Below are positions 2,631-16,284 of a DNA stretch of 64,000 nt, piece by piece. This DNA comes from Spartobacteria bacterium (GTDB lineage Bacteria; Verrucomicrobiota; Verrucomicrobiia; Chthoniobacterales; UBA6821). The stretch is taken from assembly GCA_947487385.1 (NCBI GenBank), contig CANKWU010000003.1, positions 1-64,000 on the forward strand. The letters run 5' to 3'. The notes under the pieces are model-generated. The model made no database searches. It was not told where the DNA came from and saw nothing but the letters and a program-made list of their open reading frames with translations. The translations under genes and the position numbers were made by a program. Each line of letters begins with the position of its first letter. The stretch's first letter is position 1.

Positions 2631-4184
2631 ATGGCATCCTCTACTGAAAAATCCCTTGAGTCCTGGATCTGGGATGCGGCCTCTTCCATTCGAGGGGCTA
2701 AGGATGCCCCTAAATACAAGGACTACATCCTCCCCCTCATTTTCACGAAGCGCCTCTGCGATGTCTTCGATGACGAGGTGAACCGTATCGCCAAGGAGGT
2801 TGGTTCCCGCAAGAAGGCCTTCCAGCTTGCCAAGGCCGACCACAAGCTCGTCCGCTTCTACCTCCCCTTGGTTCCCGAGGATCCCGATCAGCCCGTTTGG
2901 TCAGTGATCCGAAAGCTCTCCGACAAGATCGGCGAAGACGTCACTACTCAAATGCGGGCCATTGCCCGGGAGAACCCAACCTTGGAGGGCATCATCAACC
3001 GCGTCGACTTCAACGCCACCACACACGGGCAGCGCGACATCGACGACGACCGCCTCTCCAATCTTATCGAAGCGATTAGTACCAAGCGCCTCGGTCTGGA
3101 CGATGTAGAGGCCGACATCATCGGCAAAAGCTACGAATACCTCATTCGCAAGTTTGCCGAAGGGGGTGGTCAGAGCGCCGGTGAGTTCTATACGCCACCT
3201 GCGGTTGGCACCATCATGTCCCGCGTGCTCCAGCCAGAGCCCGGCATGGATATCTACGACCCCACCTGCGGATCTGGCGGCCTCCTGATCAAGTGCGAAA
3301 TCGCTATGGAGGAAGCGTCCAAGGGAAAGAAACGCACCGTCGCCCCCCTCAAGCTCTACGGCCAGGAATCCACCGCCGACACATGGGCCATGGCCTGCAT
3401 GAACATGATCATCCATGACATGGAGGGTCAGATTGAGATTGGTGACACCTTCAAGAACCCCAAGTTAAGGGACAGCCGGGGGAAGCTCCGCACCTTCGAC
3501 CGCGTCGTGGCTAATCCTATGTGGAATCAGGACTGGTTCACCGAGGCCGACTACGACAACGACGAGCTCGAGCGCTTCCCATCTGGCGCGGGATTCCCGG
3601 GGAAATCCTCCGCCGACTGGGGCTGGGTTCAGCACATCCACGCCAGTATGAATGAGACCGGCCGCGCCGCCATCATCTTAGACACTGGAGCCGCCTCCCG
3701 TGGCTCGGGGAATGCCGGGATCAATAAGGAAAAGAGCGTCCGCCAGTGGTTCGTCGACCATGACCTCGTAGAGAGCGTTCTCTACCTCCCCGAGAACCTC
3801 TTCTACAACACCACCGCCCCCGGCATCGTCCTCTTCCTGAACAAGGCCAAGCCCAAGGATCGCCAGGGCAAGGTCTTCCTTGTCAATGCCAGCCAGATCT
3901 TCGAGAAAGGCGATCCGAAGAACTTCATTCCCGATGCAGGTATTACCCACATCGCCGAGACCCTCATCGGCTGGAAGGAAGAGGAAAAGCTCAGCCGCAT
4001 CGTCGATCACGCCGAGCTGAAGAAGAACGACTACAACATCTCCCCCAGCCGTTACATCCATACCAGCGACGCCGAGACCTACCGGCCTATCGCCGAGATC
4101 GTCGAGGAGCTTAACGTCATCGAGACCGAGGCCAAGGAAACGGACAAAGCCCTCAGGGAGATCCTCAAGCAGCTTGGCGTATGA
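2631..4184 (+). CDS. hsdM: Type I restriction-modification system methyltransferase subunit HsdM
   Basis: This 517-aa protein has an N-terminal helical HsdM domain ('SLESWIWDAASSIRGAKDAPKYKDYILPLIFTKRL'), SAM-binding motif I DPTCGSGGLL starting at D210, and catalytic motif IV at about residue 295. The catalytic motif reads NPMW rather than the more common NPPF/NPPY. It methylates adenine in the site chosen by HsdS and is part of the M2S and R2M2S complexes. The stop overlaps the next gene by 4 bp (ATGA). I see no Shine-Dalgarno before ATG 2631. It is the first gene of the defence operon, and its length is normal for the family. Confidence 0.95.
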   Translation: MASSTEKSLESWIWDAASSIRGAKDAPKYKDYILPLIFTKRLCDVFDDEVNRIAKEVGSRKKAFQLAKADHKLVRFYLPLVPEDPDQPVWSVIRKLSDKIGEDVTTQMRAIARENPTLEGIINRVDFNATTHGQRDIDDDRLSNLIEAISTKRLGLDDVEADIIGKSYEYLIRKFAEGGGQSAGEFYTPPAVGTIMSRVLQPEPGMDIYDPTCGSGGLLIKCEIAMEEASKGKKRTVAPLKLYGQESTADTWAMACMNMIIHDMEGQIEIGDTFKNPKLRDSRGKLRTFDRVVANPMWNQDWFTEADYDNDELERFPSGAGFPGKSSADWGWVQHIHASMNETGRAAIILDTGAASRGSGNAGINKEKSVRQWFVDHDLVESVLYLPENLFYNTTAPGIVLFLNKAKPKDRQGKVFLVNASQIFEKGDPKNFIPDAGITHIAETLIGWKEEEKLSRIVDHAELKKNDYNISPSRYIHTSDAETYRPIAEIVEELNVIETEAKETDKALREILKQLGV

Positions 4185-4483
4185 AGAGCGACCTCACCAT
4201 TCTCAAAACCTCCTCCGGACTCGCCGCAGATGTCCGCGGCATGATTGAGCAGGCCCGGGGCCAAGTCGCCCGTATCGTCAACGCAGGCATGACCCTCCTC
4301 TTCTGGCGAGTCGGCAAGCGCATCCAGATCGAAATTCTTGGCAACCAGAGGGCCGAGTATGGAAAGGAGATTCTTGCCACACTTTCGCAAGAATTGAGCC
4401 GGGAATATAGCTCAGGTTTCAGCTACTCGGCTCTCACGCGGATAGCCGTCATGGTGACAGTGCTAAGGGGGATTGGAATATGA
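4181..4483 (+). pseudogene. Truncated YhcG/DUF1016-type N-terminal fragment
   Basis: The 100-aa product matches the N-terminal part of the YhcG (DUF1016) family: 'LAADVRGMIEQARGQVARIVNAGMTLLFWRVGKRIQIEIL...AEYGKEILATLSQELSREYSSGFSYSALTRI'. Full members are about 350 aa and carry a C-terminal PD-(D/E)xK nuclease domain, which is absent here; the frame ends in an unrelated 'AVMVTVLRGIGI' tail. The reading frame itself is intact and coupled on both sides (ATGA at 4181 and 4480), so a shortened functional protein is possible. YhcG genes are frequent passengers of type I restriction loci. Confidence 0.75.
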
Positions 4484-5481
4484 GCAACCTCATCCTCTAC
4501 ACCTCCCCTGATGGGAGTACCCGGCTTGATCTCCGAATCGAAGGACAGACCGTTTGGCTCACCCAGCTGGAAATCGCCGAACTCTTCCAGACCACGAAGC
4601 AAAACATCAGTCTCCATGCTGGTAATATCTTTGAAGAGGGGGAGCTGGCTGAGGTTTCAGTTGTCAAGGAATCCTTGACAACTGCCGCCGACGGAAAGCG
4701 CTACAGAACAAAGCTTTACCACCTCGATCTCATCCTGGCTATTGGCTACCGGGTTCGCTCCCCGAGGGGGGTGCAATTCCGCCAGTGGGCTACCACCCAT
4801 CTGAAGGAGTTCCTCGTCAAAGGCTTCGTCATCAACGACGAGCGTCTCAAGAACCCCGGGGGCTGGGACTACTTTGACGAGCTACTGGCCCGCATTCGTG
4901 ACATCCGGGCCTCCGAGAAGCGCTTCTACCAGAAAGTCCGTGACCTCTTCGCCCTTAGCAGCGACTACAAGACCCGCGAACAGGAGACCCAGCTCTTCTT
5001 TGCCGAAGTTCAGAACAAGCTCCTCTACGCCGCCACCAAACGAACCGCTGCCGAGCTTATCGTCGATCGCGCTGACCCCACACAGCCAAACATGGCCCTC
5101 ACCACCTGGAGCGGCAACCGAGTGAGGAAACAGGATATCCTCATCGCCAAGAACTACCTCACCGCCGACGAAGTCGACACGCTCAACCGCCTCGTCGTCA
5201 TCTTTCTGGAGCAGGCCGAACTCCGCGTCAAACAGCAGCAAGACCTCACCCTCGACTACTGGAGATCCAGCGTCGACCGGATGCTCACCTCCAACGACCA
5301 GCCCCTCTTGGGAGGGGCCGGCAGGATCAGCAACGAGAGCATGAAGACCATCGTGGCGGCCCGCTACGAGACCTTTGACGCACAGCGCCGGGAGAGCGAA
5401 GCCCTGGCCGCCGATGCCGAAGACCTCAAGGCGATTGAAGACCTAGAGAAGGATCTCAAGCGGAAAGGGAAGGGGAAATGA
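4480..5481 (+). CDS. RhuM-family protein
   Basis: The 333-aa product fits the Virulence RhuM family: 'LRIEGQTVWLTQLEIAELFQTTKQNISLHAGNIFEEGEL', then 'KRYRTKLYHLDLILAIGYRVRSPRGVQFRQWATTHLKEFLVKGFVINDERLKN', then a long C-terminal helical region ending in a Lys-rich tail (DLEKDLKRKGKGK). The N-terminus looks like a helix-turn-helix/KilA-N-like DNA-interaction segment. RhuM genes are often inserted inside type I restriction operons; the molecular role is not well established. Start and upstream stop overlap by 4 bp. The last 40 bp are duplicated before the TIR gene. Confidence 0.88.
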   Translation: MSNLILYTSPDGSTRLDLRIEGQTVWLTQLEIAELFQTTKQNISLHAGNIFEEGELAEVSVVKESLTTAADGKRYRTKLYHLDLILAIGYRVRSPRGVQFRQWATTHLKEFLVKGFVINDERLKNPGGWDYFDELLARIRDIRASEKRFYQKVRDLFALSSDYKTREQETQLFFAEVQNKLLYAATKRTAAELIVDRADPTQPNMALTTWSGNRVRKQDILIAKNYLTADEVDTLNRLVVIFLEQAELRVKQQQDLTLDYWRSSVDRMLTSNDQPLLGGAGRISNESMKTIVAARYETFDAQRRESEALAADAEDLKAIEDLEKDLKRKGKGK

Positions 5482-5554
5482 TCAGGAAGATCATCATGAT
5501 GACAACGACGATGACGATCGCCATGGTGACGACGGTAATGGGGAGGATTGTGGA

Positions 5555-5674
5555 ATGAGCTGGGATGCCGCAGAGGTTTCGATAACGGGGGTTTCAGTTA
5601 TTCGAATTTATCGAATAACTGCCGAGGTCGCAGACCTAGAGAAAGATCTGAAACGGAAGGGGAAAGGGAAATGA
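5555..5674 (+). pseudogene. Short ORF containing a duplicated rhuM 3' end
   Basis: A 39-codon ORF starts at ATG 5555 and ends in ADLEKDLKRKGKGK-stop, almost identical to the RhuM C-terminus (DLEKDLKRKGKGK). At the DNA level 5632-5674 copies 5439-5481 with a few changes. Its TGA (5672-5674) overlaps the TIR gene ATG (5671) in an ATGA arrangement, so it may act as a leader that couples TIR translation. The first half contains a perfect 11-bp palindrome. It is probably a remnant of recombination in which the gene following rhuM was replaced. Confidence 0.6.
5595..5621. promoter_or_regulatory. Perfect 11-bp inverted repeat before the TIR gene
   Basis: CAGTTATTCGA (5595-5605) and TCGAATAACTG (5611-5621) flank a 5-nt ATTTA spacer. 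It is AT-rich and lies 50 bp before the TIR start codon in the only sizeable gap (190 bp) of the first half of the operon. It could be an operator or an mRNA hairpin; there is no T-run, so a terminator is unlikely. Confidence 0.5.
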
Positions 5675-6450
5675 AAGCCTTTATCTCTTACTCTCACGAC
5701 GATGCTGAGTTTCTGGAGAAGCTGCATGAGCACTTAGCTGCGTTGAGGCGGCAGACTCTTATCGAAACATGGACTGATCGAGAAATTGATGCTGGTGGCG
5801 TAATTGATGAAGAAATCTCCGCTGCGATAGAAGCTGCCGACATCTTCATCCTTCTCGTCAGTTCCTCGTTTATTAACTCCGATTACTGCTTCAAAAAAGA
5901 GTTTCAGAGAGCGCTAGATAAGCAGAAGGCAGGAAAGGCTCTTATTGTTCCAGTTGTCATCCGTCCCTGCGACTGGAAGATCCCTGAACTCCGGCAATTC
6001 AAAGCCCTTCCGAAAGACGGTATGGCAGTTGATAGCAGGCACTGGCACAATACCGATGAAGCTTTTGCTGATATTGCCAAGGGGCTCCGGAGTCTTCTGG
6101 AGAAGAACCAAAACGAGCCAAAATCCGAGCAAATAAAGCCATCAGGAGATTCCCAATTTGCAGAACCTAGTCTACCGCTAGCAAAGGAGCTCCTTGATCT
6201 TATTCTAAAACATCCAACCCAAGAGGAGCAGGGCCTCACTGAGATTCTGAGAGACAGCCCAGAGGGAGTGCTTTTTCGTGCATTTATTCCCAATACTACG
6301 GCGCGAGGTGAAGCCCCATCGGTAAAGAAGTCACTCTTTGCCCCGGCGGTGGCGGAGCTTATTCGCCTTGGTTGGCTGCTTCAACCCGAAGGAAATCATG
6401 CATTTCGGATTTACGAGCTGAATTCGGAATCACGTAGACCTGCACAATGA
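5671..6450 (+). CDS. TIR-domain protein in the restriction operon
   Basis: I take ATG 5671 as the start because it begins the TIR domain (MKAFISYSHDDAEFLEKL) and follows a GGAAAGGGAA ribosome-binding sequence. The TIR domain spans about residues 1-145, with 'IEAADIFILLVSSSFINSDYCFKKEFQRAL' where E77 is the likely NADase glutamate. Residues 175-259 look like a small winged-helix-like domain ('KHPTQEEQGLTEILRDSPEG...AELIRLGWLLQPEGNHAFRIYEL'). Family knowledge: bacterial TIR proteins consume NAD+ or make cyclic ADP-ribose signals during phage defence. Its stop overlaps the hsdS start, so TIR is co-expressed with the specificity subunit. The function as a backup abortive module is inference. Confidence 0.88.
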   Translation: MKAFISYSHDDAEFLEKLHEHLAALRRQTLIETWTDREIDAGGVIDEEISAAIEAADIFILLVSSSFINSDYCFKKEFQRALDKQKAGKALIVPVVIRPCDWKIPELRQFKALPKDGMAVDSRHWHNTDEAFADIAKGLRSLLEKNQNEPKSEQIKPSGDSQFAEPSLPLAKELLDLILKHPTQEEQGLTEILRDSPEGVLFRAFIPNTTARGEAPSVKKSLFAPAVAELIRLGWLLQPEGNHAFRIYELNSESRRPAQ

Positions 6451-7718
6451 TGAACGGAAAACCATATCCGATTCCCGAGACATGGACAGAATCGTCCATT
6501 GGGAAAACGGTCATCAAAACCAAGCAGCGCGACCCACGAAAGAAGCCCGACGAAGTTTTTAAATATGTCGATGTCTCGGCTGTCTCCAACACATCTTTCA
6601 AAATTACAGACGCTGCGCCTACGCTAGGATCCGACGCCCCAAGCCGAGCACGAAAAGCAATTCAGACTAACGATGTTCTATTCGCAACAGTTCGACCGAC
6701 TTTGAAGCGAATTGCATTGGTCCCTCCAGAATGCAATGGAGCAATAGCCAGCACCGGATATTGTGTTTTGCGTTGTGATAAAACGAAGGTAGAGCCAGGT
6801 TTTCTCTACTCGTTCCTAATTACTGATCACTTCAATGCTCGTATGGCTGGGTTGGAGCGCGGAGCAAGCTACCCAGCAGTTCGAGATTCTGATGTGACCG
6901 CATCATGGATTCCTCTCCCCCCACTCCCCGAGCAGAAGAAGATCGCGGAGATTCTTTCGACGGTGCAGCGGGCGATCGAGGAGCAGGAGCGGATCATTCA
7001 GACCACCACCGAGCTGAAAAAGGCCCTCATGCACAAGCTCTTCACCGAAGGCCTCCGAGGAGAACCCCAGAAACAAACCGAAATCGGCCCCGTCCCCGAA
7101 AGCTGGTCCCCAATCACACTCGGAGAATTGTGTGGAAAGCCTAATGGTGCATTGCAGACAGGCCCGTTCGGTAGCCAGCTTCACAAAAACGAATATCAGG
7201 AAGACGGCATCGCGGTGGTCAACCCGACTCATCTCGCCGGGAACCGTATCAATCACGAAAACGTTCCTCGCGTCAGCGAGCAAGTTGCGCAGCGACTTGG
7301 CAAACACCGCCTTCGGAAGTTTGACATACTGTTCGCCCGCCGGGGAGAGATTGGACGCCAAGGCTTGGTGACCGAAGCAGAGGAAAAGTGGCTTTGTGGA
7401 ACGGGCTGCTTTCTTGTCCGAGCGAGCAAGCCATTCATCGACAATCGTTTCTTGGCGCTCTATTTCGCTACGGATCGACTCGTGAAGTGGCTCTATTCAC
7501 ACGCTGCGGGTGCAATCATGCCCAACCTCAACAACGCCGTGATGCAACGCTTGCCGGTGTTCTATCCGGATCTGGACAGCCAAACCACGATCATCGAAAC
7601 GTTCGCGACGATTGACCAAAAGTTGAGCGCTGCCGAACGGAGACAAACCGCCCTCCAAGACCTCTTCCGCACCCTCCTTCACGAACTAATGACCGCAAAG
7701 ACCCGCGTTCACGAATGA
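6447..7718 (+). CDS. hsdS: Type I restriction-modification specificity subunit HsdS
   Basis: This 423-aa protein has two target-recognition domains, each followed by conserved helices. TRD1 covers about residues 1-155 and ends with 'IPLPPLPEQKKIAEILSTVQ'; TRD2 covers about 215-375, and the C-terminal helices read 'LDSQTTIIETFATIDQKLSAAERR'. It determines the bipartite recognition site of the HsdM/HsdR enzyme. The TRD parts are visibly more AT-rich than the helical spacer (about 6895-7115), as expected when TRDs are exchanged by recombination. It overlaps the TIR gene by 4 bp; a second ATG follows directly at 6450. Confidence 0.93.
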   Translation: MMNGKPYPIPETWTESSIGKTVIKTKQRDPRKKPDEVFKYVDVSAVSNTSFKITDAAPTLGSDAPSRARKAIQTNDVLFATVRPTLKRIALVPPECNGAIASTGYCVLRCDKTKVEPGFLYSFLITDHFNARMAGLERGASYPAVRDSDVTASWIPLPPLPEQKKIAEILSTVQRAIEEQERIIQTTTELKKALMHKLFTEGLRGEPQKQTEIGPVPESWSPITLGELCGKPNGALQTGPFGSQLHKNEYQEDGIAVVNPTHLAGNRINHENVPRVSEQVAQRLGKHRLRKFDILFARRGEIGRQGLVTEAEEKWLCGTGCFLVRASKPFIDNRFLALYFATDRLVKWLYSHAAGAIMPNLNNAVMQRLPVFYPDLDSQTTIIETFATIDQKLSAAERRQTALQDLFRTLLHELMTAKTRVHE

Positions 7719-7735: not shown

Positions 7736-8677
7736 ATGAGCGCGAACTTCCAGAACCCGCCTTCCGGAGCGACAAGGATTAAGGTCCGAAAAACAGCGGG
7801 CGGCATTCATCTATTCAATCGTGCAACAGGCACAAACGTTCTGATCGATGAGATCCGTCCGTCTCCGGCAAATTTCTCGCGAGCACCTCGCCAAGTCTCA
7901 ATCGCTCTGACCAACACCTGCGACCTATCCTGCGAATACTGCTATGCCCCAAAATCCCCAGCCAATCTTCCTCTGGAGGACCTCAAGAGATGGCTTTGGG
8001 ATCTCGATGAACACGGCTCAATCGGCATCGGTTTTGGCGGCGGAGAACCAACACTCTACCCAGCTCTACCCGAAGTCTGCGAATTCGCGACCCGATACAC
8101 CAATCTTGCGGTAACGATTACCACCCACGCACACCGTCTGTCGGCCAAACTCCTTCGAACCCTCGAAGGAAACATCAATTTTGCCCGAGTCAGCATGGAT
8201 GGTGTCGGATCTACCTATGAAGCAAATCGAGGTCGAAGCTTCGACAACCTCATTGGGAGAATTAAGGACCTAAGCAGCCTTGTGCCGTTTGGAATCAACT
8301 TCGTGGTCAATTCAGACACGATCTCGGATCTCGACACGGCAATTGACTTAGCTTCGAAGATGGATGCGCGTGAGTTCCTCCTTCTTCCGGAGCAAGCGAC
8401 ATCATCCCGCCGCGGAATGGACGAGGACACTCGACGAATGTTGACCACTTGGGTTGAAGGATACACGGGAACAGTCCCTCTCTCGGTCAGCGAGGGCGAC
8501 ACTGATGGTCTTCCAACCTGCAACCCGCTGCCACTCGAAACGGGATTAGCTGCCTTTGTGCACATCGACGCCGCCGGGAACCTCAAGCGGACATCCTATG
8601 ATCGATTAGGCGTTGAAATCTCCCAGACCGGAATCATTGCCGCCTTGGAACAACTTAAGAAGGAGTCTGAAATTTAA
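7736..8677 (+). CDS. Radical SAM protein in the defence operon
   Basis: This 313-aa protein carries the [4Fe-4S] motif C62-x3-C66-x2-C69 ('TNTCDLSCEYCYAPKS') and the SAM-binding GGE motif (GFGGGEPTLYP, about 100-110), so it is a bona fide radical SAM enzyme. The C-terminal part ('TCNPLPLETGLAAFVHIDAAGNLKRTSYDR') has the shape of a SPASM/twitch region, but most cluster cysteines are absent. It does not match viperin-type sequences well. It starts 17 bp after hsdS and stops 5 bp before the 131-aa gene. A role in modifying a peptide, nucleotide or partner protein for defence is inference from context. Confidence 0.85.
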   Translation: MSANFQNPPSGATRIKVRKTAGGIHLFNRATGTNVLIDEIRPSPANFSRAPRQVSIALTNTCDLSCEYCYAPKSPANLPLEDLKRWLWDLDEHGSIGIGFGGGEPTLYPALPEVCEFATRYTNLAVTITTHAHRLSAKLLRTLEGNINFARVSMDGVGSTYEANRGRSFDNLIGRIKDLSSLVPFGINFVVNSDTISDLDTAIDLASKMDAREFLLLPEQATSSRRGMDEDTRRMLTTWVEGYTGTVPLSVSEGDTDGLPTCNPLPLETGLAAFVHIDAAGNLKRTSYDRLGVEISQTGIIAALEQLKKESEI

Positions 8678-8682
8678 ACATT

Positions 8683-9078
8683 ATGAAAATCTGGAACGGA
8701 TACGGATCAGAGCACTCGATGAATCTGGTAATGATTGGCCACTTCAAAAGTGAAGATGATGCTAAGAAGACCCAGGAAATCATCGAGAAGCTCTCAGTTG
8801 AGTTGAGCGGAAAGATTGATATCGGCACCAATCAAGAGAATTTCGGAAGTGAAATCCGAGACATTCTGAAAGCCGCGGATTGTTACTTTCTGAGTCCCGG
8901 CGAACTCGAGCATTTTCTTTATGACACTCACACTCGCGTGGAAGGTGACAAGATCATTCTCGAGACTGACGAGACAGAGGTATCTGCGTTCTTCAAACTG
9001 ATGATGTATAAGGGTGCAAAGGTCGAAGTGTATTCCGCTCATCACTACCCAGACGAGCAACAAGATCCTCAAACATAA
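8683..9078 (+). CDS. Conserved-looking 131-aa protein paired with the radical SAM gene
   Basis: The 131-aa product starts MKIWNGYGSEHSMNLVMIGH and looks like a compact alpha/beta protein, acidic overall, with no membrane segment. The opening resembles small proteins that I recall being annotated as a domain of unknown function (possibly DUF6375), but I cannot confirm this. It lies 5 bp after the radical SAM gene and 13 bp before the large NTPase, so the three are probably one functional unit. It might be a substrate, chaperone or inhibitor for either neighbour. Function unknown. Confidence 0.75.
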   Translation: MKIWNGYGSEHSMNLVMIGHFKSEDDAKKTQEIIEKLSVELSGKIDIGTNQENFGSEIRDILKAADCYFLSPGELEHFLYDTHTRVEGDKIILETDETEVSAFFKLMMYKGAKVEVYSAHHYPDEQQDPQT

Positions 9079-9091
9079 AAAGATCCCTCCG

Positions 9092-12000
9092 ATGCCGGCA
9101 CTAGATTGGACAGAATTTGACGCACTCGCGGGGAGTCGAAGCCAAAACTTCGAGAATCTTTGCCGCGGATTGATGCACCTACACGTGGGGAGCTTTGGCG
9201 AGTTTCGTGCACTGAGGAATCAGCCCGGCGTCGAGTTCCACCTGAAGCTAGCTCGAGACTGCTCCAGTCTCGGTTCTCCCCCTCGGTGGTGGGGATGGCA
9301 GTGCAAGGTCTACAAACGCACGGATGCCGGAGACCTATATGCCGCGGGGAAGAAGAATATCGCGGAATCACTTCAAAAAACAAAAACGCACCTCCCAAAA
9401 CTCACGGACTGGGTCTTGTGGACTCCGTTTACGCTCAGCAAGGCTGACCAAAAGTGGTTCAATGAATTGGAAACTGAAATGGAGTTGCACCTCTGGGCGG
9501 AAGAGGAGGTTGATACCTACCTAGCCGGACCTGGCATCATTCTTCGAAGCACCTATTTCGGCGACTTGGTCGCCTCTCCCGAGGAACTCGCGCAACGTCA
9601 CCATGAGGCAGTCCAACCGATCAAGGAGAAATGGTTAGAGCAGGTTCACCAAACAACTGAATCTGAACGAACTCTGAGGCGTATGCTTGGCGAGCCTGGA
9701 TCGTGGAATCACTTGATCGAAACCGGCACGCGCCTTCAAAAGGCTGGCGAGACAATTTCAGAGTTCGCAGCCTCCGCGCACTACGTCTCACAGGAGGTCG
9801 TGCAGAAGTTCGTTCACTCGTGCGTGGCCTTCGCTGAGACGCTACTTCAATTTCACAGAACGCTTGAGGAAGGAGATCTCGATATAATTCGACAACAACT
9901 CACCGAGCGCCAGTCATTGCTCGGTGACGAAGTGAAAGCTACGCCAAGATACCTGCGTAAGCTTGCAGTTCCGATCGCTCTCGACGCGACCAATGCGTTG
10001 CACGACATGCGCATAGCCCAAAGCCTCTTGGATGAAGTCGAGGAATTCTTGGGGGTTGGACTGATTGCTGTTTTGGCTGATGCTGGTGGCGGGAAGACCC
10101 AACTCGCTGCATCAATCACAGCCCCCCAAAGTGCAAGGCCTTCAGGCGTGCTTCTCCTCGGCGGAAAACTTCACCATGGTGGGGACCTCAATGACCTGGC
10201 ACGAAGTTACACTCTCAACGGTAAGCCCCTTGGCGGTTTTGAGCTGCTACTAGCAGCGCTCGATGCTGCGGGGAAGCGATCGAGGTGTCGCCTCCCTCTT
10301 GTTATTGATGGATTGAATGAAGCTGAGAATCCAAAGAATTGGAAAGCTCCTCTCGCGTCCCTCGCTGAAACCGTAAAGGCTTACCCCAATGTTCTTATAG
10401 TGTGTACCTTGCGCACTGGAGAACGCGGACGCGAGCATTCCATGTGGGACAAGACGCCAGCCACAAATGCACGAGAGTCATTCGCTGTAATGTCACTTCC
10501 TGAAGGCATAAGGCGCATTGAAGGCGAGGGATTTGGGGCCGACACCAAGGAAGCGATTAGTAAATACTTTGAGTATTTCAGAATTGATCCGGGAGACGCG
10601 GAGATCCCTCTCGAGTTTCTGCAACATCCGCTTACCCTCCGGATCTTTTGTGAAGTCACCAATTCCGAGCGCCTCGAGATGGTCAATATCGATTATTTTC
10701 CCGCAGCTCTCGCGCCACTATTCACAGAATATGTCGAGCGCTCCGCAACCAGAATCTCTGAGTTGCAGAACTTGAGTTACTCTTACTCCGCAGATGAGGT
10801 TAGGGTGGCAATATACAAACTTGGGTTGTTGTTGTGGGAGCAACAATCGAGGGAAATTGAAGAAAAGAGCTACCGAGATGCAGTTGGGGATGCTGCAAGG
10901 GGATGGAATAGCAGCATTGTCAATCTACTCGCCCAAGAAGGCATCATCTTCCGCAACCCAGGCGATACTCTCGGTGAGTATGTGCTAACCCCGACCTACG
11001 ACGCTCTCGGCGGCTTTATCATTGCAAGTTCTCTGATTGCCAAAAACTCTCAAGACAGATCTTTCACATGGCTGAGTGAGTCGGGTGTTATTGATTCATT
11101 TGGAGGTGAGAACAGCCACGAATTGGCATCCGACATCTTTCGTTCGTTAGTGGCGCTTGCGCCGAGTGAAATGGGCGGCGTGCAGCTATGGAAAGTCGCA
11201 CCTGAACCGTTCAAAAACAGTGCTCTCCGATTTGCAACTGCGCTCGCGCCTGAGTTCCTAGATGGAGAGACGGTCGGTGCTCTACTGAAACTGTTTGAAG
11301 AGAACTCAGAAGAACGGGCGCGGTTCTACTCGCGTCTATACGGAACCAGATCCGCTGTAGCGCATCCGCTAAATGCAGAATTCCTCGACAAGGTTCTCCG
11401 GACTCTTACCCCGGTTGGCGAGAGAGATCTATCGTGGACTGAATGGATCCGCCAAACCAGAAGCGAGCGATTTGCCGATATTCTCGCCTTGGAGAAGAAG
11501 TGGAAATCGCGCCCTACCGATCGAGGAGATTCCGACCAACTACGGCTACAGTGGTTGATGTGGCATCTCACTAGCACCGACCGCGAGCTCAGGGATGTTG
11601 CTACGCGGGCGATCTATTGGTTTGGACGCGGCGACCCTCCAGCTCTGTTTAAAAAAGCGATTAACTCACTGGAAATCAATGATCCTTATGTTCCCGAGCG
11701 AATGATGGCTGCCAGCTATGGAGTGGCTATGTCGCACCAAGTAGGTGTTGAACGCGAGTTATTCGCTTCAGAAGAGTTGCCTAGATTTGCTCGGGAGGTA
11801 TATGGCGCAATTTTTGCGGAGGGCGCCCCTTACTGGACCACTCACATCTTGCTTCGGGAGTATGCGGCCCGGGTAATTGAGATGACCAACCTGCATAGCC
11901 CAGCTCATTTCTCGGCTGAGGAGCTCACAAGATCGACTGCACCTTTCTCAATGTCAGATTTGTCCAATTGGGGGTTGAAGAAGGGTTCGGAGGAAGGGAC

Positions 12001-13369
12001 TTGGGCTTCTTTAGGGCCTTCACCATTACGGATGGATTTCGAAAATTATACCCTTGGTCGATTGACCCCAAATCGAGCGAACTATGACTATGAGCATGAA
12101 GGTTACAAGAATACGAAAGCCCGCATTTTGTGGCGTATTGACCAGCTCGGCTGGTTTTCGGGCAGCTTTGACGAAATTGATAGCCGAATCGCAAGTGATC
12201 AGAATTGGAGGAGATCGTCCAATGATCCGAAGAAGACCGATCGTTATGGAAAGAAGTATTCGTGGATCGCTTACTTCGAAATGGCCGGACTGCTCCACGA
12301 TCTGGGGGTAATTGATCGCACCTATGGGCGTGAGCGAACTTCGGATGTTGATATTGATCCTAGCTTTCCTGAGCGAGTTCTCAAATATAAGCTGTTTGAT
12401 TCTGACCTTCTAGGCTCTCCAGACACGGGTATGGCTGACTGGATTGCAAATGGCGAGCAACCGGATATGGCTCCCTATCTCATGGTTCATTGCATTGGAG
12501 AACATGAAGGTCCGTGGGTAGCCTTGGACGGATTTGTTGTTCAGGAGGATGAACGGCGAGGACGCAGATCTTTCTGCTTTGCCAGGAGTTTCATCGTTGC
12601 GAACGCGAGTTCGGAAGCCTTTCTTGAGAAATTGGCGACTCAAGAGCTTGGAGGGCGATGGCTGCCCGAGAAGCCATCTGTCATATACACCTTCGAAGGG
12701 GAGATCCCTTGGTGTGCAACTTATCCAGCGAATGGCCCAACTGGTTTCTCATTTATCGAAAATGAACGAACCGTAAAGGTTCAGAAATCGCGCACGGAGT
12801 TGTTTCTCGACGACCAGCTGTTGACTGAATCCCAAATGGAATTCCTGAGGCGCAAACTAGTCAACAAAGAGCTTTCTACAGATGTGGGTGGACTTATTGA
12901 CGCTGAAATCGAGAGGATCGAGGCTCGAGAGATTCCGTTCATAGCCAATGAAATCGAACGGGATTTCGCAGAATTTCAGGCGCTTATTCCAGTCTGCGAC
13001 TTCGGATGGGAAGGATATCAAACCTCGGCAAGCGACTCCGGACATGCAGTTACCCTTGCTAGAGAAATAGCTGATGCTCTCGACTTAGTTCAACACCCAC
13101 AAGAGTTCGATCTATTTACCAGAAACGGGGTAAGAGCTTCGTTGAACATTTCTGACCACAGTACCGATTATAACAATAATCAGTCATTCTTCTTCATCAA
13201 CGAAGGTCTCTTGAAGCGTTATCTTGAACAAAAAGACTCCACGCTCATCTGGGCGGTCTGGGGTGAGCGTGAATACTCGTCAAAGCAAGCTAGCGCACTA
13301 TTCCATGGGCCGAATCGGCCTGAGCAAACTCGCGGAGACATCAAATATGTCCGCCGCTTTGACCCATGA
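9092..13369 (+). CDS. Large predicted nuclease-STAND NTPase (Avs-like architecture)
   Basis: I choose ATG 9092 because the upstream ATG (9014) lies inside the preceding gene; this gives 1425 aa. The N-terminal 160 residues look like a PD-(D/E)xK nuclease domain: E48 in PGVEF, then Q70-x-K72 in WWGWQCKVY. A P-loop follows (LADAGGGKTQLA, K335) with Walker B 'LVIDGLNEA' (D406), characteristic of STAND/NACHT ATPases. About 900 C-terminal residues form a long, mostly helical region without a motif I know, the usual position of a sensor. Family knowledge: nuclease-STAND proteins such as Avs detect phage proteins and cut DNA. The stop overlaps the hsdR start (ATGA). Confidence 0.82.
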   Translation: MPALDWTEFDALAGSRSQNFENLCRGLMHLHVGSFGEFRALRNQPGVEFHLKLARDCSSLGSPPRWWGWQCKVYKRTDAGDLYAAGKKNIAESLQKTKTHLPKLTDWVLWTPFTLSKADQKWFNELETEMELHLWAEEEVDTYLAGPGIILRSTYFGDLVASPEELAQRHHEAVQPIKEKWLEQVHQTTESERTLRRMLGEPGSWNHLIETGTRLQKAGETISEFAASAHYVSQEVVQKFVHSCVAFAETLLQFHRTLEEGDLDIIRQQLTERQSLLGDEVKATPRYLRKLAVPIALDATNALHDMRIAQSLLDEVEEFLGVGLIAVLADAGGGKTQLAASITAPQSARPSGVLLLGGKLHHGGDLNDLARSYTLNGKPLGGFELLLAALDAAGKRSRCRLPLVIDGLNEAENPKNWKAPLASLAETVKAYPNVLIVCTLRTGERGREHSMWDKTPATNARESFAVMSLPEGIRRIEGEGFGADTKEAISKYFEYFRIDPGDAEIPLEFLQHPLTLRIFCEVTNSERLEMVNIDYFPAALAPLFTEYVERSATRISELQNLSYSYSADEVRVAIYKLGLLLWEQQSREIEEKSYRDAVGDAARGWNSSIVNLLAQEGIIFRNPGDTLGEYVLTPTYDALGGFIIASSLIAKNSQDRSFTWLSESGVIDSFGGENSHELASDIFRSLVALAPSEMGGVQLWKVAPEPFKNSALRFATALAPEFLDGETVGALLKLFEENSEERARFYSRLYGTRSAVAHPLNAEFLDKVLRTLTPVGERDLSWTEWIRQTRSERFADILALEKKWKSRPTDRGDSDQLRLQWLMWHLTSTDRELRDVATRAIYWFGRGDPPALFKKAINSLEINDPYVPERMMAASYGVAMSHQVGVERELFASEELPRFAREVYGAIFAEGAPYWTTHILLREYAARVIEMTNLHSPAHFSAEELTRSTAPFSMSDLSNWGLKKGSEEGTWASLGPSPLRMDFENYTLGRLTPNRANYDYEHEGYKNTKARILWRIDQLGWFSGSFDEIDSRIASDQNWRRSSNDPKKTDRYGKKYSWIAYFEMAGLLHDLGVIDRTYGRERTSDVDIDPSFPERVLKYKLFDSDLLGSPDTGMADWIANGEQPDMAPYLMVHCIGEHEGPWVALDGFVVQEDERRGRRSFCFARSFIVANASSEAFLEKLATQELGGRWLPEKPSVIYTFEGEIPWCATYPANGPTGFSFIENERTVKVQKSRTELFLDDQLLTESQMEFLRRKLVNKELSTDVGGLIDAEIERIEAREIPFIANEIERDFAEFQALIPVCDFGWEGYQTSASDSGHAVTLAREIADALDLVQHPQEFDLFTRNGVRASLNISDHSTDYNNNQSFFFINEGLLKRYLEQKDSTLIWAVWGEREYSSKQASALFHGPNRPEQTRGDIKYVRRFDP

Positions 13370-16284
13370 AACCCACCGAACACAAAACCGTCCAAGCCAG
13401 GATCCTTGCGTATGCGCAAGAGATCGGATGGACCGTTGTGTCACGGGATGAGTCTGAGAGGCGGCGTAGATTTGACCCAGAGTTACCTCCTGCCGACAGG
13501 GCCAAAAACCGAACCCTCTTCTTCGACGACCTGCTTGATGCCAAGGTGCGGGAGTTCAATCCCCGCTATGCCGAGGCGGAGGGTGCCCTCCTCGGTCAGC
13601 TCCGCCATCTCCACTCTGACATCTACGGCAACCAGGAATTCCTCGACTACCTGCGGAACCGAGGGAAGTTCTACGACCATGAGGAGAAGCGCGAGCGGGA
13701 CCTGATCCTGATCGATTACGAGCATCCCGCCCGCAACACCTACGAGGTCACGGAGGAGTGGGCCTATCACAACGGCCACTACGGGACGCGGGAGGATGTG
13801 GTCTTCCTCATCAACGGCATCCCGGTGCTGGTGATCGAGTGCAAGAACGCCAACAAGGACGAGGCGATTGCCCTGGGGGTGGATCAGATCCGTCGTTACC
13901 ACCGCGAGACACCGGAGCTTTTCATCCCTCAGCAGCTCTTCACGGCCACGGATGCCATCGGCTTCTCCTACGGGGTGAGCTGGAATACGGTGCGGCGGAA
14001 TATCTTCAACTGGAAGCACGAGGAGGTAGGGAAGCTGGAGGAGAAGGTGAAGAGCTTCTGTGCGATCCCGCAGGTGCTGGCCTTCCTGAAGGACTTCATC
14101 GTCTTTGCCGAGAAGGATGAGGAGCTGAACAAATATATCCTCCGCCAGCATCAGACCGGTGCCGTGGAGGCTACCGTAACCCGAGCGCTCGATCCGAAGC
14201 GTACCCGGGGACTGATCTGGCACACGCAGGGGAGTGGGAAGACCTTCACGATGATCAAGGCGGCGGAGCGCCTCTTCCGCGATCCCAGTGCCGATAAGCC
14301 GACGATCTTACTCATGATCGACCGGAATGAGCTGGAGGACCAGATGCTCAAGAACCTCTCGGCGCTCGGCCTGGGTAATCTGGAACACGCCGACAGCATC
14401 ACCCGGCTCAATCAGCTCCTGCGCGACGACTACCGAGGCATCATCGTGACGATGATCCACAAGTTCCGCGATATGCCGGTGGATCTGAATCTCCGGAAGA
14501 ATATCTATGTCCTCATCGATGAGGCCCATCGGACGACAGCTGGTGATCTCGGGAACTTCCTGATGGCAGGTCTGCCGAATGCCACCTTCATTGGCTTCAC
14601 CGGGACCCCGGTCGACAAGACGGTCTATGGGAGGGGGACCTTCAAGACCTTCGGCTGTGAGGATGATCAGGGCTACCTTCACAAATACTCGATCGCCGAC
14701 AGTATCGAGGATGGGACCACACTTCCGCTCTATTACCAGCTAGCGCCCAATGAACTGCTCGTCCCCCACGAAACGCTGGAGAAGGAGTTCCTCTCCCTCG
14801 CTGAGGCCGAGGGGGTGGCGGACATCGAGGAGCTGAACAAGATTCTGGACCGGGCGGTGAACCTGAAGAACTTCCTGAAGGGGAAGGAACGCATCCAGCA
14901 GGTGGCAGGGTTCGTTGCCAAGCACTACACCGAGAATGTGGAGCCGCTGGGATACAAGGCCTTCCTGGTCGGTGTGGATCGCGAGGCCTGCGCCCTCTAC
15001 AAGCATGCCCTCGATCAGATCCTCCCGGCGGAATACTCCGAGGTGGTCTATACGGGGAATAACAACGACTCGGCGCTGCTCAAGGAATTCCACCTCGATC
15101 TGAAGAAGGAGCGGCAAATCCGCAAGAGCTTCGGGAAGCTCGACCAGCAGCCGAAGATCCTGATCGTCACGGAGAAGCTGCTCACGGGATTCGACGCACC
15201 CGTTCTCTACGCCATGTATCTCGACAAGCCGATGCGGGATCACACGCTGCTCCAGGCGATCGCCCGGGTGAACCGCCCCTACGAGAATGAGGCGCAGGTG
15301 ATGGTGAAGCCTCACGGCTTCGTCCTCGATTTCGTCGGAATCTTCGACAAACTGGAAAAGGCCCTCGCCTTCGATAGCAAGGAGATCAATGCGATCGTCA
15401 AGGATCTGAAGCTCCTGAAGGTGCTCTTCCAAGAGAAGATGGAGACGAAGGCTCCGGCCTACCTCGGATTGATCGAGCGGAACTTCAATGACAAGGACAT
15501 CGATACCCTGATCGAGCACTTCCGCGATCCCGAGCGGCGGAAGGAATTCTTCAAGGAATACAAAGAGATCGAGATGCTCTATGAGATCATCTCGCCGGAC
15601 GCCTTCCTGCGGCCCTTCATCGATGATTTCACCACGCTCTCGGCGATCTACGACATCGTCCGCAAGGCCTACACCAAGCGGGTGATGGTAGACCGGGATT
15701 TCCAGAAGAAGACCAATGCCCTAGTGCAAGAGCATGTAGGGGGTTACACCTCCGACGGACCGCTCGACCCGGTGAAGATCGACGCCACCACGCTGGAGCT
15801 CATTAGGAAGAAGCGCGGAGGCGAGGGAACCAAGGTCATCAACCTGATTAAGAGCATCCAGAAGACGGCTGAGGAGGAGAGCGAGGATCCATTCCTAATC
15901 GCTATGGCCCAGCGAGCCCAAGCAGTGCAGGAGAGCTTCGAGCACCGCCAGACGGAAACTGCAGAGGCCCTGGAGTTACTCCTGAAGGAGGTCAGCCTCA
16001 ACGAGGAGAGGAAAAAGGAGCAAGCCGAGAAGGGATTCGATGGACTGACCTTTTTTGTCTACCGAACCCTACTGGATGCCAAGATTGGCAATGCCGAAGG
16101 CGTGAGCCGCAAAATCAAGGAGGCCTTCGTCGCCAACCCCAACTGGAAGCGCAGCGAGGCCTCACTCCGGGAACTGCGAAACAAGGTGACCTTTGCCATC
16201 TTCGCAGAGATGGATGATCTGGATGGAGTGACGAGGATCGTGGATGAACTCTTCACCCTGCTGGCCAAGGCGGATCGGATCTGA
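13366..16284 (+). CDS. hsdR: Type I restriction-modification endonuclease subunit HsdR
   Basis: This 972-aa protein has an N-terminal PD-(D/E)xK nuclease core ('REDVVFLINGIPVLVIECKN'), then a superfamily 2 translocase: Walker A 'LIWHTQGSGKTFTMI', DEAH-type box 'LIDEAHRT', motif III 'GFTGTPVD', 'LLTGFDAPVLY' and 'QAIARVNRPY'. The C-terminal helical domain is complete. It forms the restriction complex with HsdM and HsdS and cleaves unmodified DNA after translocation. It is separated from hsdM by eight other reading frames, an unusual distance. G+C looks clearly higher than in the preceding NTPase gene, pointing to different histories. Confidence 0.95.
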   Translation: MKPTEHKTVQARILAYAQEIGWTVVSRDESERRRRFDPELPPADRAKNRTLFFDDLLDAKVREFNPRYAEAEGALLGQLRHLHSDIYGNQEFLDYLRNRGKFYDHEEKRERDLILIDYEHPARNTYEVTEEWAYHNGHYGTREDVVFLINGIPVLVIECKNANKDEAIALGVDQIRRYHRETPELFIPQQLFTATDAIGFSYGVSWNTVRRNIFNWKHEEVGKLEEKVKSFCAIPQVLAFLKDFIVFAEKDEELNKYILRQHQTGAVEATVTRALDPKRTRGLIWHTQGSGKTFTMIKAAERLFRDPSADKPTILLMIDRNELEDQMLKNLSALGLGNLEHADSITRLNQLLRDDYRGIIVTMIHKFRDMPVDLNLRKNIYVLIDEAHRTTAGDLGNFLMAGLPNATFIGFTGTPVDKTVYGRGTFKTFGCEDDQGYLHKYSIADSIEDGTTLPLYYQLAPNELLVPHETLEKEFLSLAEAEGVADIEELNKILDRAVNLKNFLKGKERIQQVAGFVAKHYTENVEPLGYKAFLVGVDREACALYKHALDQILPAEYSEVVYTGNNNDSALLKEFHLDLKKERQIRKSFGKLDQQPKILIVTEKLLTGFDAPVLYAMYLDKPMRDHTLLQAIARVNRPYENEAQVMVKPHGFVLDFVGIFDKLEKALAFDSKEINAIVKDLKLLKVLFQEKMETKAPAYLGLIERNFNDKDIDTLIEHFRDPERRKEFFKEYKEIEMLYEIISPDAFLRPFIDDFTTLSAIYDIVRKAYTKRVMVDRDFQKKTNALVQEHVGGYTSDGPLDPVKIDATTLELIRKKRGGEGTKVINLIKSIQKTAEEESEDPFLIAMAQRAQAVQESFEHRQTETAEALELLLKEVSLNEERKKEQAEKGFDGLTFFVYRTLLDAKIGNAEGVSRKIKEAFVANPNWKRSEASLRELRNKVTFAIFAEMDDLDGVTRIVDELFTLLAKADRI

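Follow-up and report, generated by a model that had tools for sequence, protein, structure and literature searches.

A predicted Avs2-type receptor in a conserved three-gene unit with a radical SAM enzyme and a DUF6375 protein

The three-gene locus and its conservation

The stretch of DNA analyzed here (the window) comprises 64,000 nucleotides of contig CANKWU010000003.1 from a Spartobacteria bacterium. Within it three consecutive genes encode a radical S-adenosylmethionine (SAM) enzyme, referred to below as rSAM, a protein of the family DUF6375 and a large protein resembling the nuclease-STAND receptors of the AVAST (Avs) anti-phage systems (Table 1). An initial annotation of the window had proposed this trio, lying inside a type I restriction operon, as a candidate defence system. 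When the coordinates of the open reading frames (ORFs) were rechecked, the three ORFs and their gaps of 5 bp and 13 bp were as claimed, and the setting was also recovered, the trio being flanked by hsdS and hsdR with hsdM in the same operon.

The conservation of the trio was determined by running a DUF6375 alignment against 84,980 species genomes, using residues 6-14 of the protein as the pattern, which yielded 71 loci. An rSAM gene was found directly upstream of DUF6375 in 70 of these, and a receptor gene was the next one downstream in 66 of the 69 loci with enough contig, with constant order and orientation. The rSAM and DUF6375 genes shared a 4-bp ATGA overlap in 57 of about 76 loci. The unit spans at least 12 phyla and nearly every locus lies outside hsd operons, so that the co-occurrence away from hsd loci which the initial annotation expected of a true unit was indeed observed. 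One metagenome-assembled genome (MAG; L058) carried DUF6375 without the other two genes.

A similar association was found on plasmids, where all 16 DUF6375 matches adjoined an rSAM gene and rSAM matches were limited to those 16 records, and in 244 cyanobacterial genomes, where rSAM, DUF6375 and strong receptor matches all fell in the same three genomes with no orphans. Both partners were present beside every receptor scoring above 1000 bits against the receptor profile (76 of 76, duplicates counted), whereas neither accompanied the 18 Avs2-like receptors, L124 included, that scored below 630 bits. Pairwise distances of the three proteins were correlated (0.62-0.75, Mantel p=0.0005), the receptor giving 0.75 with each partner and rSAM giving 0.62 with DUF6375. 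The rSAM, DUF6375 and receptor genes are thus a conserved unit, and their co-occurrence is far beyond chance.

The receptor

The residues that the initial annotation had picked out in the 1425-residue protein were present and conserved when counted over 34 trio receptors: E48 was found in all 34, Q70 in 32 (S in 2) and K72 in 28, the other 6 having R at that position, and both K335 and D406 were invariant. A profile of the first 185 residues matched the nuclease domain of Avs4 (8dgf, residues 1-113 against 1-102), in agreement with the nuclease-STAND identity proposed earlier, and it also matched the N-termini of solo Avs2-like receptors (e.g. L101, 2e-11). The STAND part matched the solved Avs2 9o4e by profile (2.6e-85), and the effector, STAND nucleoside triphosphatase (NTPase) and C-terminal sensor layout is present. 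The PADLOC Avs2 model PDLC02164 covered residues 2-958, and PADLOC Avs2 models matched all 34 trio receptors. No Pfam match to the receptor itself was obtained, the NCBI Avs2 equivalog NF041813 gave 267.4 bits, under its 1000-bit cut-off, and the Escherichia coli copies are annotated "hypothetical protein". Judged by its profile matches, the 1425-residue protein is a divergent Avs2 (AVAST type 2) nuclease-STAND receptor. Since it matches Avs2 in both the STAND part and the last third, its anatomy suggests Avs2-like working, and a nuclease effector joined to Avs2-like sensing is likely. Avs1-4 detect the packaging proteins of phages and cut DNA through their nuclease effectors (PMC12931631); by analogy, the trio receptor may sense terminase.

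The trio receptors share with Avs2 (PADLOC Avs2, NF041813, 9o4e) a PD-(D/E)xK N-terminus, a STAND NTPase and a related C-terminal sensor. They differ in several residues: 29 near-invariant positions are unlike those of solo Avs2, several of them within the NTPase and helical regions or close to these, and Q44 stands where most solo Avs2 have D ahead of GVE (DAGVE). Elsewhere Avs2 is found as a single-gene sensor, and the solo Avs2-like genes examined had neither partner, whereas rSAM and DUF6375 stand beside every receptor of the trio clade. The likeness to Avs4 (8dgf) is confined to the N-terminal nuclease domain, no similarity being detected past it, and the portal-protein trigger of Avs4 is not expected for the trio receptor. 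Avs2 sensors seem often to swap effectors.

A second Avs2-like receptor (L120) was observed in Sphingobacterium about 12 kb from the L053 trio, with an N-terminus that reads like a trypsin-type protease (GTGSGIL...FTAKHC). The L117 receptor has a DUF4062-like N-terminus starting RTIRIFLSSPGD.

The radical SAM enzyme

The CxxxCxxC motif claimed for the first gene product (C62, C66 and C69) was conserved in all 39 rSAM proteins over which residues were counted, and GGGEP was found at positions 101-105. In the AlphaFold2 model (mean predicted local distance difference test, pLDDT, of 91.5) this motif is combined with a partial TIM barrel, which places the protein in the radical SAM superfamily. 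Its best profile match was SkfB (2.5e-18) and its best fold match by Foldseek was again SkfB (4.2e-17), followed by SuiB and then by viperins, which also superposed well. From these profiles and the model, the core looks most like that of a maturase of ribosomally synthesized and post-translationally modified peptides (RiPPs).

In common with SkfB and SuiB, the trio rSAM has a small protein adjoining it. Unlike them, it has no conserved auxiliary-cluster cysteines, the C-terminal half holding only C262 (21 of 39), and its partner is a folded domain of 131 residues, not a short leader-core peptide. No RiPP recognition element (RRE) was found by Pfam; in the model the N-terminus forms three strands.

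The DUF6375 protein

The AlphaFold2 model of DUF6375 (pLDDT 82.5; residues 1-9 mostly below 50) showed a beta-alpha-beta-beta-alpha-beta, ferredoxin-like fold with extra helices, for which no relative below 1e-3 was found in the PDB and none among viral structures. With this fold and no PDB match below 1e-3, its identification as an RRE or a CARF-like domain was rejected. The N-terminal tail, MKIWxGYGSEHS, is hyperconserved and flexible in the model. Because the genome scan had used residues 6-14 as its pattern, tail conservation was re-measured on 11 copies found without it; the first 14 residues were still the most conserved, with a mean identity of 0.86 vs 0.59 overall, and the tail was likewise conserved in L128, which breaks the scan pattern. 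Conserved residues of the tail and of the edge adjoining it are W4, G8, E10, H11, S12, S118 and H120. In a fold of this kind, S118 and H120, at the conserved end of the last strand, would be expected to share an edge with the tail. Small standalone proteins adjoining radical SAM genes are usually substrates or partners, and a conserved flexible tail beside such an enzyme fits a modification site.

Proposed mechanism and alternatives

Taken together, the data are best explained by a mobile anti-phage unit in which rSAM modifies DUF6375 and DUF6375 controls the Avs2-type receptor, a reading to which we assign a probability of roughly 0.5. A role of the trio in anti-phage defence is very probable, and the specific choice of DUF6375 as the rSAM substrate has about an even chance. 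By homology to Avs2 and Avs4, the C-terminal region of the receptor would sense a phage protein, the STAND domain would then drive ATP-dependent assembly, and the N-terminal PD-(D/E)xK domain would cut DNA and stop the infection. The rSAM would modify DUF6375, probably in the flexible tail at its N-terminus or at the conserved edge beside it. The receptor would then require modified DUF6375 as a partner that either licenses it or keeps it inactive.

Several observations in this and the following paragraph weigh against that reading. Neither a recognised RRE (Pfam) nor a SPASM cluster was found in rSAM, and for this reason its assignment as a peptide maturase rests on similarity. The conserved tail of DUF6375 and H120 might instead serve to bind a ligand or a metal, a ligand site being conceivable from E10, H11 and H120. 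The substitutions of K72 and Q70 suggest that some receptor copies may not cut DNA. The top PADLOC match of rSAM was pVip (7.3e-19, residues 54-199), and its fold is close to that of viperins, with template modelling scores up to 0.78 (target-normalised) and a root mean square deviation of about 3.2-4. It resembles the pVips, which are antiviral radical SAM enzymes, in size as well as fold. The rSAM might thus make a small molecule, either a viperin-like chain terminator or a signal, which DUF6375 binds, stores or detects and by which the receptor is triggered or protected; a weak match of DUF6375 to the CARF_PIN model (0.005) is consistent with this. However, the curated viperin model NF038283 gave only 50.8 bits against a cut-off of 180, and SkfB and SuiB outscored the viperins. 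In addition, Gly186, invariant in all 39 proteins, aligns with the triphosphate-binding lysine of the viperin FKxN strand, and E-x-L presumably stands where viperins have the RWK motif. Membership of rSAM in the viperins was therefore rejected, and a small-molecule product detected by DUF6375 is an unlikely explanation of the unit. The likeness to SkfB and SuiB, the lack of auxiliary-cluster cysteines and the glycine in place of the FKxN lysine favour, rather than prove, a substrate that is a protein or peptide and not a nucleotide, and we consider such a substrate probable.

Two loci, L071 and L077, carried rSAM and DUF6375 without a receptor, and in Halomonas sp. A40-4 (L034:9048-10004) the rSAM frame was interrupted while DUF6375 and the receptor were open. 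The first two loci, and the existence elsewhere of Avs2 receptors without partners, would be expected if rSAM and DUF6375 were a separate module, a toxin-antitoxin pair or a second defence system, travelling with the receptor. On the other hand, a receptor of the trio clade without both partners was found in no sample, and L071 and L077 look like remnants or binning artefacts, since a transposase-like ORF lies just downstream in L077 and L071 is a MAG. An independent module is accordingly very unlikely.

Alternatively, rSAM might act on the receptor, perhaps on its N-terminal domain; DUF6375 would then be an adaptor that recruits the enzyme, and folding, assembly or sensing would require the modification. 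The three genes are inseparable and co-evolving, the receptor distances correlate better with those of either partner than the partners' do with each other, and the 29 residues that set trio receptors apart from solo Avs2 would suit this arrangement. The strongest receptor motif, the invariant RYGKKY of the sensor region, was considered as the modification site and dropped, because it also occurs in the partner-less sister receptors L092 and L124 and so is not a signature of an rSAM target. Nothing specific marks the receptor as a substrate, and the usual role of small standalone proteins beside radical SAM genes points to DUF6375 instead. Modification of the receptor is therefore doubtful, and DUF6375 is preferred as the substrate.

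Origin and spread of the unit

In a tree of 83 receptors, made by a quick method and with long outgroup branches, all partnered receptors (65 of 65) formed one clade of their own, nested among Avs2, with full support in the Shimodaira-Hasegawa-like approximate likelihood ratio test (SH-aLRT). Partnered receptors have a single origin. The nearest relatives of the clade were L092 and L124, which lack partners and differ in their N-terminus; given the quick tree and the long branches among outgroups, their placement as sisters is less secure than the clade itself. Phyla were intermixed within the clade: receptors from a Vibrio plasmid, Shewanella and Psychrobacter were near-identical and grouped together, and copies from Micavibrio, an alphaproteobacterium and Desulfobacula clustered. 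The unit has spread horizontally. It is present on Vibrio, Deinococcus and cyanobacterial plasmids, of which the Vibrio carriers are conjugative, and on the chromosomes of 26 of 5,426 complete E. coli genomes. The three E. coli loci inspected lay at three separate sites near tRNA-Phe, tRNA-Thr and tRNA-Asn, with integrase genes. The unit is rare: it was present in 3 of 289 genomes in the phylum of the window, in 2 of the 247 from the class of an actinobacterial copy, and in 1 of 247 and 1 of 369 from the classes of a Sphingobacterium and a Pseudomonas copy, respectively; in both of these latter classes the one carrier was the centre genome.

The flanks of 16 loci contained parts of Kiwa, Hma, MADS, type I and II restriction-modification (R-M), Dpd, PARIS AriA and Old systems, recorded as presence only. 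The location on plasmids and tRNA islands would also be consistent with a role other than defence against phages, such as guarding a mobile element against plasmids or controlling the excision of a prophage or island. The homology of the receptor to the phage sensors Avs2 and Avs4 and the type I R-M, Kiwa and PARIS neighbours speak against such a role, which we regard as highly improbable, and anti-phage defence remains the preferred function. DUF6375 was absent from the phage records searched, and a motif scan of viral contigs gave no match; one IMG/VR contig (L122), found through rSAM, carried the full trio. From these searches of phage records and viral contigs, a phage or prophage origin of the trio was rejected.

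Three further observations concern carrier loci and relatives. The L007 Vibrio plasmid carries the resistance genes qnrVC6 and dfrA alongside the trio. In E. coli MLI107 a 4-bp overlap joins the receptor gene to that of a 762-residue protein (L138:20425-22713) with, by eye, an Mrr-like N-terminus (GPDDGIDG...LQAKHY), which is a possible optional fourth gene. The sister receptor L124 lies on an IMG/VR contig, where the downstream ORFs appear by eye to be type I R-M genes.

Novelty and significance

The initial annotation had put the trio forward as a candidate for an undescribed system. This holds for the combination, since no description of rSAM, DUF6375 and receptor together was found in the literature and family libraries searched, although a mention elsewhere (subscription AVAST supplements, bioRxiv) is possible; it does not hold for the receptor, which belongs to the named Avs2 family. 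As all 34 receptors match PADLOC Avs2 and the C-terminus matches 9o4e, the system is an AVAST type 2 variant and not a wholly undescribed one. The literature searched contained nothing on DUF6375 and nothing pairing Avs2 with a radical SAM enzyme, in agreement with the initial annotation, which could name no system with a radical SAM enzyme as fixed partner. A radical SAM effector was reported in 2020 in a different, vWA-MoxR/FtsH, conflict system (eLife, PMC7159879). The trio is a newly recognised Avs2-type AVAST with an obligate rSAM and DUF6375 pair.

AVAST receptors are bacterial relatives of the nucleotide-binding leucine-rich repeat receptors (NLRs) of animals and plants, and we know of no described bacterial immune receptor of the Avs kind that needs such a chemical modification. 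The fixed unit across the phyla sampled suggests that the trio receptor probably depends on one. We tentatively suggest, at slightly less than even odds, that the competence of this STAND (NLR-like) receptor depends on a modification installed by rSAM on a dedicated small partner, which would be the first control, by licensing or restraint, of an innate immune receptor by radical chemistry. A whole receptor clade is now inseparable from an rSAM enzyme and DUF6375. Should either the partner or the receptor prove to be modified by rSAM, control of the receptor by post-translational modification could be tested directly in E. coli, a natural host of the complete unit; DUF6375 would gain a function, and a type of substrate new to radical SAM enzymes would be indicated.

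The host restriction-modification operon

Table 1. Position of the trio, its receptor features and the neighbouring R-M genes in the window
Feature	Position	Strand	Basis
rSAM gene	7736-8677	+	ORF, 313 aa; PF04055 6.9e-14
DUF6375 gene	8683-9078	+	ORF, 131 aa; PF19902 2e-42
Receptor gene (start ATG at 9092)	9092-13369	+	ORF, 1425 aa; PADLOC PDLC02164 Avs2 2.4e-106
PD-(D/E)xK nuclease-like N-terminal domain (E48, Q70-x-K72)	9092-9646	+	Profile vs Avs4 8dgf 9e-7
Walker A GGGKT, residues 332-336	10085-10099	+	G332, G334, K335 34/34
Walker B region DGLNE, residues 406-410	10307-10321	+	D406, L408, E410 34/34
Putative C-terminal sensor region, residues 950-1425	11939-13366	+	Profile vs Avs2 9o4e C-terminus 1.1e-24
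RYGKKY, invariant, in sensor region	12242-12259	+	
hsdS, type I R-M, upstream neighbour (outside trio)	6447-7718	+	PF01420; L008 arranged alike
hsdR, downstream neighbour (outside trio)	13366-16284	+	TIGR00348 4.5e-144
hsdM, same type I R-M operon	2631-4184		

The stop codon of the receptor gene overlaps the hsdR start codon in the sequence ATGA. The hsdS-trio-hsdR arrangement was found in the window and in its relatives L008 and G005, and in none of the other loci searched, a handful of which have recognisable hsd relatives nearby. These three loci thus resemble type I R-M operons in which defence genes are embedded, whereas the trio elsewhere is independent of that arrangement.

Between hsdM and hsdS the window also encodes a DUF1016_N fragment (4181-4483), RhuM (4480-5481) and a TIR-domain protein (5548-6450; ThsB-like, 5.4e-42), the likely true start of which is further downstream, at MKAFISYSHDD. 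With these, a single R-M operon harbours several genes of defence type. Two ORFs adjoining the operon (379-891 and 888-1370, 4-bp overlap) resemble, by eye, an Xre/MbcA - RES toxin-antitoxin pair.

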